Below are positions 26,291-38,348 of a DNA stretch of 64,000 bases, in pieces (the first letter of the stretch is position 1; each line of letters starts with the position of its first letter). Location: the NCBI GenBank assembly GCA_021794095.1, contig JAJYRN010000003.1, positions 1 through 64,000 of the forward strand. The letters are read 5' to 3'. This DNA comes from Acidobacteriota bacterium (GTDB lineage: Bacteria > Acidobacteriota > Holophagae > Holophagales > Holophagaceae). Under the pieces are notes generated by a model. That model had not been told where the DNA came from and did not search any database. It was given only the letters and a program-made list of their open reading frames with translations. A program made the position numbers and the translations under genes.

Positions 26291-26722
26291 TCACAGCTTG
26301 CGGACCGCCACCGAAGCGCCGGCCCCTTTCCGGAGGAAAAGGATCTGGACGCGTACGGGGCCGGTCGGGAACCGGAAGGTGAACCGGAAGGTTTTCGACG
26401 CGCCCTCGCCCGCGCAGAAGGCACGGAACTCGCCCTGGAAACCTTGGACGGCCGTGCAGGGGGCCACGTCGGTGAAGAAATTGCGCCCGAGGACCTCCTC
26501 TGGCCGCCGCCCCGCGAGTTCGCTCTCCGCCCGGTTGTAGGCGAGGACCGTTCCCTCTTTCGAGAGGACGATCACACCAAAAGGGAGGGCGTCGAGTTCG
26601 GATTCGCTGAGATCGGGCACGCCCCGGAGTTGCCGGTCGCAGGCGGGGCAGATGCCATGGGAGTGCTCCACCGGGCTCTCCCCGATCCGGGCTCCGCACC
26701 AAGCACAGATCACCGCAGGCAT
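26291..26722 (-). CDS. Photoactive yellow protein (PYP) homologue with N-terminal zinc-ribbon-like segment
   Basis: A 143-residue protein. Residues about 40-143 align without gaps, with a constant offset of 20, to the PYP core of Halorhodospira. The match includes the chromophore cysteine (Cys89 in FFTDVAPCT, PYP Cys69), Tyr62 (Tyr42), Glu66 (Glu46) and Arg72 (Arg52). Thr50 of PYP is replaced by Ala70. PYP binds p-coumaric acid through that cysteine and senses blue light. The usual N-terminal cap is replaced by a segment with CAWC at 6-9 and CPAC at 25-28, plus two histidines, as in a small zinc ribbon. I chose the ATG at 26722 because GGAG lies five bases upstream. No TAL or p-coumaroyl-CoA ligase gene is in the window, so chromophore supply is unproven. 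It could also be a PYP-like PAS protein with another ligand. Confidence 0.8.
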   Translation of the reverse strand: MPAVICAWCGARIGESPVEHSHGICPACDRQLRGVPDLSESELDALPFGVIVLSKEGTVLAYNRAESELAGRRPEEVLGRNFFTDVAPCTAVQGFQGEFRAFCAGEGASKTFRFTFRFPTGPVRVQILFLRKGAGASVAVRKL

Positions 26723-26749
26723 GGGCACTCCGCAGGTGGTTTCCCATTA

Positions 26750-27020
26750 GGAGCTGGAACGAAATAAGCAATACCATCGCGCGGGGTGCCGGGCAAGCGA
26801 GTCAAGGAGGCTGAGGTTCCAGCGGAGCGGGACTCCGTGAACCGAAGCCGACGCAGGATCGCGCCGCCCGCCACCCCGCGCCCGGAGGGTTGACGCCCAT
26901 CCGCGCGCCCCGCGGCGTCAGGGCCCTTGGACCATGAACCACATGGCCCTGCGGGCCCTTCCTTGCGGATGCATCGCGGCTGGGCGTCAACGATGGCAAC
27001 GATTATTCCGTTCCAGCTCC
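26750..27020. mobile_element. MITE-like element, copy 1 (271 bp)
   Basis: Terminal inverted repeats begin GGAGCTGGAACG and end with its complement; the terminal match extends to about 19 bp with one mismatch. The body matches the element at 38036-38348 in inverted orientation with nine substitutions. It has no credible ORF. Internally TTGACGCCCA (26890) pairs with TGGGCGTCAA (26981), and there are several GGGCCC-centred palindromes, so it can fold strongly. Each end is flanked by TA, as expected for an IS630/mariner-type target duplication. It lies 27 bp upstream of the PYP-homologue start. Confidence 0.8.
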
Positions 27021-27029
27021 TAAGCATAA

Positions 27030-27056
27030 CCGCGGGGGCCAAAAAGGCCCCCGCGG
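27030..27056 (-). terminator. Strong hairpin, probable terminator of the malic enzyme gene
   Basis: CCGCGGGGGCC and its complement form an 11-bp GC stem around a five-base loop, 27 bases after the malic enzyme stop. There is no clear U-tract on the minus strand, so termination may be partly factor-dependent. Confidence 0.6.
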
Positions 27057-38035: not shown

Positions 38036-38348
38036 GGAGCTGGAACGGAATAATCGTTGCCATCGTTGACGCCCAGCCGCGATGCATCCGCAGATATCCG
38101 TTCGTCTCGCGTATCGCCGTAGGCGATACCGAGAAGGAAGGGCCCGCAGGGCCATGTGGTTCATGGTTCAAGGGCCCTGACGCCGCGGGGCGCGCGGATG
38201 GGCGTCAACCCTCCGGGCGCGGGGTGGCGGGCGGCGTGATCCCGCGTTGGCTTCGGTTCACGGAGTCCCGCTCCGCTGGAACCTCAGCCGCCTTGGCTCA
38301 CTTGCCCGGCACCCCGCGCGATGGCATTGCTTATTCCGTTCCAGCTCC
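38036..38348. mobile_element. MITE-like element, copy 2 (313 bp, inverted to copy 1)
   Basis: It has the same GGAGCTGGAACGGAATAA termini, here perfectly inverted over 18 bp. The body is about 97% identical to copy 1 (nine substitutions), but 42 bp are added between the CCTTCC and GCGGATGC segments. Within the added DNA lies a 30-nt palindromic unit (38105-38134). The left end abuts the uspA stop codon. Flanks do not show a clean target duplication. There is no credible ORF inside. Confidence 0.8.
38105..38134. repeat. 30-nt palindromic element inside MITE copy 2
   Basis: TCTCGCGTATCGCC, GT, AGGCGATACCGAGA. The GTATCGCC/GGCGATAC arms pair perfectly. The outer TCTCG(C) and (C)CGAGA ends pair apart from a C-C mismatch. 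Its reverse complement has the same outer bases as the palindrome at 54697-54724. It is part of the 42 bp absent from MITE copy 1, so it was gained or lost after the copies separated. Confidence 0.65.

Follow-up and report, generated by a model that had tools for sequence, protein, structure and literature searches.

The gene described here lies on the minus strand of the window, the 64,000-nucleotide stretch of contig JAJYRN010000003.1 that was analyzed, in the 2.99 Mb, 99% complete genome of a member of the genus Geothrix (Acidobacteriota). It encodes a predicted protein of ~16 kDa in which a four-cysteine segment precedes a domain of the photoactive yellow protein (PYP) type, and the protein is referred to below as ribbon-PYP. 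The features of the locus are as follows.

26291..26722, minus strand: ribbon-PYP gene (143 aa), with the ATG at 26722 and the stop codon at 26291-26293
26728..26731, minus strand: GGAG Shine-Dalgarno-like box, 5 nt before the ATG
26639..26707, minus strand: four-Cys ribbon CAWCGARIGESPVEHSHGICPAC (residues 6-28), from the conserved cysteines and an AlphaFold2 (AF2) pLDDT of 83-93
26312..26614, minus strand: PYP-type PAS domain (residues 37-137), from the TIGR02373 match and the fold match to PYP crystals
26537..26539, minus strand: codon of Tyr62 (equivalent to Tyr42), by alignment
26525..26527, minus strand: codon of Glu66 (equivalent to Glu46), by alignment
26507..26509, minus strand: codon of Arg72 (equivalent to Arg52; variable within the subfamily), by alignment
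26456..26458, minus strand: codon of Cys89 (equivalent to the chromophore-binding Cys69), from alignment by HMM, phmmer, and fold
26747..27023, no strand given: MITE-like element of 277 bp with 33-nt terminal inverted repeats TTAGGAGCTGGAACG...
27023..27056, minus strand: terminator-like hairpin after maeB (27030-27056), then TATGCT (27023-27028), a possible promoter box

The position of the ATG and a similar Shine-Dalgarno-like box were found to be kept in most orthologues. Comparison with the nearest relative (L040, 83% identical) gave a dN/dS of 0.09/0.47 = 0.19, which indicates purifying selection on the coding frame. When the two parts of the protein were compared with the same relative, the values were 0.05/0.45 for the ribbon and 0.10/0.47 for the PYP part, and by this measure the ribbon is constrained at least as strongly as the PYP part. 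The open reading frames on the plus strand across the same bases were dropped, since the support from family, fold, and selection all falls on the minus-strand frame. No match to the protein was found in PHROGs. The initial annotation had read this frame as that of a PYP homologue, and the gene is real by its selection, by the profile match given below, and by 18 further homologues in the Geothrix group.

Upstream of pyp lies maeB, which is closed by the terminator-like hairpin, and the genes downstream (transglutaminase-like/TPR, a small protein without a Pfam match, and a PDZ-SpoIIE phosphatase) are convergent to pyp; an operon partner was therefore rejected. The arrangement of hairpin and TATGCT upstream of pyp is conserved in several Geothrix, and the distance from TATGCT to the start of pyp is about 30-40 nt in L040 and in several relatives from Geothrix. 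In the present strain, the likely promoter is separated from the start codon by the MITE-like element, which sits 24 bp upstream of the pyp start and is absent there in the nearest relatives. Because of this insertion, expression may be affected, and the transcription of pyp in this strain may be altered or may rely on the element. About 20 substantial copies of the element are found in the genome, and partial copies too, several of them 97-99% identical; a second copy is located in the window near 38036-38348, and some copies carry internal insertions. The gene order is shared with G. fermentans, which we read from the sequences as shared descent, and not with the deeper ribbon-PYPs. No conserved partner gene was found to adjoin ribbon-PYP in the loci that were compared.

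The assignment of the PYP-type domain draws on profile, fold, and pocket residues, which agree. TIGR02373 (photo_yellow) matched residues 37-137 with 103.7 bits (E = 7e-30), compared with 40.4 bits for PF00989, 39.9 bits for PF08448, and 20 bits for the PAS S-box (sensory box). The curated cut-off of 143.05 bits for TIGR02373 was missed, and hence ribbon-PYP is not filed under that equivalog. Canonical PYPs were determined to score 197-210 bits against this model; a control, the PYP of a Chromatiaceae species in a large open frame (L117), reached 132.6 bits and is also under the cut-off. The model recovers only about 20% of PYP homologues (PMC9664959). The best sequence match in the PDB was Ppr-PYP from Rhodospirillum centenum (1mzu, E = 1.5e-23), and the top 33 PDB sequence matches were all PYPs or PYP derivatives.

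The AF2 model, obtained with an alignment of 72 homologues, has a pLDDT of 89.3 and a pTM of 0.82. Using this model, Foldseek returned PYP structures on top (2phy, E = 3.9e-12), and VIA-align superimposed residues 24-143 on residues 5-125 of the PYP crystal structure 1gsv with a Z of 18.1 and an rmsd of 2.1 over 117 residues, compared with a Z of 13.0 for the best non-PYP PAS domain. Two findings had been named in advance as speaking against a PYP, namely a better score to generic PAS families and a misplaced Cys89. A generic PAS domain is ruled out by both the bit scores and the Z values, and the segment that contains Cys89 aligns with PYP in the predicted fold.

Tyr62, Glu66, Ala70, Arg72, and Cys89 correspond to residues 42, 46, 50, 52, and 69 of Halorhodospira halophila PYP at a constant offset of 20, and the chromophore cysteine and the equivalents of Tyr42, Glu46, and Arg52 are thus all present as first proposed. 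The change of Thr50 to Ala is also there, but it is not a peculiarity of this protein, since Ala50 is the consensus of the PYP family (PMC12826048). The equivalents of Cys69, Tyr42, and Glu46, together with a closer resemblance to PYP than to other PAS domains, are among the properties by which the family has been delimited (Xing et al. 2022, PMC9664959), and these were all found. As judged from the alignment and the model, the chromophore pocket of this PYP-type PAS domain looks intact.

The N-terminus follows the pattern CAWC-x13-GICPAC, with the cysteines at positions 6, 9, 25, and 28. Cys6, Trp8, Cys9, Ile24, Cys25, and Cys28 are invariant in 19 proteins of the Geothrix group and in an 18-row cross-phylum alignment. 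The AF2 model has strands and a helix at residues 3-32, and the same elements were obtained when the 39-residue N-terminal segment was folded alone (pLDDT 88). Two C-x2-C knuckles with beta-hairpins, as expected of a zinc ribbon, are indicated by the sequence and by the beta strands and helix of the two models. The fold matches of the ribbon were individually non-significant (Foldseek E ≥ 1, VIA Z ≤ 2.7) and were mostly zinc sites, including those of Zur, PerR, Fur, the ClpX ZBD, Fin, PHD, RING, and ribosomal proteins; the best Pfam zinc ribbon was DZR_2 with 18.4 bits, under its cut-off of 27. Because no structural match was significant, the ribbon was not named after a known fold; "zinc-ribbon-like" is a fair description, and the module probably binds zinc. 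The initial annotation had claimed that the N-terminal cap is replaced by a C-x2-C...C-x2-C segment, and this is confirmed in that a conserved four-Cys module, with a predicted ribbon fold, stands in place of the usual PYP N-terminal cap.

The distribution was determined in 77 genomes of the family Holophagaceae, 47 of which belong to the Geothrix group (named relatives: G. fermentans DSM 14018, G. rubra, G. fuzhouensis, G. campi, G. terrae, and G. paludis), and in a wider sampling of 396 genomes from the Acidobacteriota, 392 from the Planctomycetota, and 394 from the Gemmatimonadota class. Without a cysteine filter, 19 ribbon-PYP genes were found in 18 of the 47 Geothrix-group genomes, and none was found in the other 29, some of which are incomplete. 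Tyr62, Glu66, and Cys89 are invariant in all 19 of these proteins, as are the four cysteines. Outside the Geothrix group 17 more were found (two in Acidobacteriota, seven in Planctomycetota, and eight in Gemmatimonadota), for a total of at least 36 distinct genes across three phyla; this number is a lower bound, and two more genes (L190 and L204) are only partly readable. The 36-gene set was picked by a pattern of four cysteines plus the APC motif. Ribbon-PYPs are 143-170 residues long with 13 to 33 residues between the cysteine pairs, and outside the genus the ribbon is mostly CAWC...SHGIC.

Within the set of 36, and with the numbering of PYP, position 42 is Tyr in 34 proteins and Phe in two, position 46 is Glu in 35 and Gln in one, and Phe62, Phe63, and Phe96 are kept in every case. 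Arg52 is kept in 20 of the 36, position 50 is mostly Ala, and Met100 and Trp119 are lost. In a tree of the PYP domain only, the ribbon label needs 2 changes, compared with a mean of 20 when the labels are shuffled, and the carriers thus cluster. A single ribbon clade was not rejected (p-AU = 0.14) in this tree, which was built from few columns. From these sequences it is plausible that the ribbon was fused once, long ago, and was then transferred or lost.

Several other PYP architectures were encountered. A stand-alone PYP without the ribbon is found in the Geothrix group (L023, genome G027), and both types circulate in this group. Other PYPs of the Holophagaceae are N-terminal on a histidine kinase (L021 and L022) or on a V4R protein (L024). 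In L020 (616-1839) and L025, both from another genus of the Holophagaceae, and similarly in L060 and L067, an EAL domain is followed by a C-terminal PYP without a phytochrome; the 2025 survey found EAL fusions only with an N-terminal PYP (PMC12826048). A 3.7-kb contig from the Thermoanaerobaculia (L082) carries three distinct PYP genes next to one another. In Holophagaceae genus g9 (L026, 304-1989), a CSWC...GICLAC ribbon precedes a PAS-like stretch that lacks the cysteine motif of PYP, and from this example ribbon-PYP may be one case of a wider ribbon-PAS architecture.

The CxxC...[TS]HG[IL]C-x2-C signature of the ribbon is also shared by C-terminal modules in the same genome (ICSxCKKIRD...THGICPxC) on kinases and regulators. 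These modules differ from the ribbon in having about 30 residues between the pairs, in their C-terminal location, and in standing apart from PYP; the resemblance is no more than suggestive of homology to the short ribbon. In L143, L144, L145, L146, and L148 the pattern is IC[SA]xCKK[IV]R[DN]D-x-G-x-W...[TS]HG[IL]CP-x-C, and several of the carriers are kinases or other regulatory proteins. No Pfam match above cut-off was obtained for the two modules that were tested, and the pattern suggests an undescribed module that binds zinc and serves for output or dimerization.

The presence of genes for tyrosine ammonia-lyase (TAL) and p-coumaroyl-CoA ligase (pCL) had been suggested as a check on the PYP assignment, and neither was recognized: the arrangement expected from the H. 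halophila-type operon, with TAL and pCL nearby or elsewhere in the genome, was not found. The sole gene of the aromatic-lyase family is HutH (625 bits, over the cut-off), which has Ser-His (SH) at the selectivity motif, compared with His-Leu (HL) in five of the six lyases beside canonical pyp genes. SH at this position is typical of histidine ammonia-lyases and HL of TALs. With HutH as the only candidate, a dedicated TAL was rejected. A match to the lyase family was obtained in each of the 30 well-assembled Geothrix genomes, with or without pyp, and, split fragments aside, none of these genomes has a second copy. Only general AMP-binding ligases were found in the genome, and none of them was recognized as a relative of the short pCL of the PYP type. 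The most 4CL-like of these, the PRK08162-like ligase L032, was rejected as a pyp partner because it is missing from most pyp-bearing relatives, complete genomes included. No TAL or pCL was found near ribbon-PYPs in the loci scanned, several of which are on short contigs, compared with eight of the other PYP loci, a difference that is suggestive only. In known pyp operons TAL is found in about 5% and pCL in about 32%, and uptake of p-coumarate has been considered (PMC12826048). Given this rarity, the missing genes are weak evidence and constitute a gap rather than a refutation.

Ribbon-PYP shares with H. halophila PYP and the PYP family the profile, the fold, the chromophore cysteine, Tyr42, Glu46, Arg52, and the aromatic cage (PMC9664959, PMC12826048), and, like H. 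halophila PYP, it consists of one short chain that lacks a classical output domain. It differs from H. halophila PYP in the four-Cys ribbon that takes the place of the cap, in the change of Thr50 to Ala, in the loss of Met100 and Trp119, and in a genome without TAL or a recognizable pCL. The highest identity among solved PYPs in the fold search (41-45%) was with R. centenum Ppr-PYP, with which Arg52 is also shared. However, Ppr is a PYP-phytochrome-histidine kinase fusion with an N-terminal PYP, whereas in ribbon-PYP the ribbon comes first and nothing follows the PYP. The Znf-heliorhodopsins of the Thermoplasmatales, in which a photoreceptor is fused to an N-terminal CxxC-x17-CxxC zinc ribbon, are a precedent for the idea, although these are archaeal membrane retinal proteins with an unrelated receptor fold (PMC8612252).

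The statement in the initial annotation that PYP is rare outside proteobacteria is weakened, since PYPs from such organisms, Acidobacteriota included, are documented (PMC9664959, PMC12826048); 2.4% of the 984 sequences in the family survey are from Acidobacteriota (PMC12826048). A text search of both surveys found no mention of zinc or of a cysteine-rich N-terminus (PMC9664959, PMC12826048). The 2025 survey counts only PYPs over 200 aa as multi-domain (PMC12826048), and by this rule ribbon-PYPs of 143-170 aa would count as single-domain. In the open literature, with closed papers and supplements outside the scope of the search, no paper was found that pairs photoactive yellow protein with a zinc ribbon or with Geothrix. 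The PYP family itself is thus known, and for the ribbon-PYP architecture no description was found in the open papers searched.

We propose that ribbon-PYP is a PYP photoreceptor in which the segment that unfolds in the light has been replaced by the ribbon, which serves as the output surface. We regard the case for this proposal as evenly balanced, and it is mainly the gap in chromophore supply that keeps our confidence at that level. Cys89 would bear a p-coumaroyl (or related) thioester, for which the chromophore would come from outside or be made by an unrecognized enzyme. Blue light would isomerize the bound chromophore, Glu66 would give its proton, and the core would loosen, such that strain could move, free, or re-orient the zinc-bound ribbon; in Halorhodospira PYP the same strain is taken to unfold the 25-residue N-terminal cap. 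The ribbon would then dock on a separate partner, and it is proposed as the docking surface because the protein has no other output domain. Loss of Met100 is expected to slow recovery. This residue has been discussed as a catalyst of re-isomerization (PMC9664959), and from its absence we predict that the dark recovery of ribbon-PYP is slow. More tentatively, and with something short of even confidence, we suggest that the proteins from Acidobacteriota, Planctomycetota, and Gemmatimonadota constitute a largely stand-alone ribbon-PYP subfamily whose N-terminal segment is a zinc-binding output module with docking controlled by light. Light is perhaps joined in this subfamily by redox or metal status, and the partner is perhaps a protein or a nucleic acid.

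The ribbon could instead be only a structural lid, a zinc-stapled replacement of the cap, with the signal leaving via the beta-scaffold or by dimerization as in ordinary PYP. It stops right at the first PYP helix and fills the position of the cap, the four cysteines never change while the linker separating the two pairs ranges from 13 to 33 residues, and the fold matches, although non-significant, are mostly structural Zn(Cys)4 sites. However, residues that are not ligands are also conserved (Trp8, Ile24, and mostly His22), which suggests a recognition surface, and similar C-terminal ribbons are carried by regulators of the same genome; we therefore consider a lid alone to be unlikely, though credible. 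The genome without TAL or recognizable pCL, and the examined ribbon-PYP loci without either when several canonical pyp loci have them, would also be consistent with a protein that does not sense light in vivo. The Cys89 pocket would then trap or sense aromatic acyl-CoA or thioesters (hydroxycinnamoyl-CoA from plant material, for example), or work unliganded, and the ribbon would report occupancy. This is improbable in our judgment: Tyr42, Glu46, and the aromatic cage are kept, and these tune the photocycle beyond what acylation alone would need, and the frequencies of TAL and pCL in known pyp operons are low in any case (PMC12826048).

We attach very little probability to the proposal that the four-Cys module is a redox switch, operating by release of Zn/Fe or by disulfide formation, that gates PYP or is gated by it and thereby integrates light and redox. 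The module has two C-x2-C pairs, the genus is known for anaerobic Fe(III) reduction, and Zn(Cys)4 sites that act as redox switches are known. For the Ppr of methylobacteria, redox sensing derived from PYP has been put forward, by another route (PMC9664959). However, the predicted fold points to a structural site of the Zn(Cys)4 type, and no redox gene is linked to the locus.

After four decades of work on single-domain PYP, its partner and the role of the unfurling of the N-terminal cap in recognition are still open (PMC11003764). Ribbon-PYP has a conserved, probably metal-binding module exactly at the cap, which provides a natural handle on the idea that the cap is the output, and it would offer a small photoswitch with a built-in, putative metal site. 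If the photoreceptor reading is true, light sensing would be placed in Geothrix.
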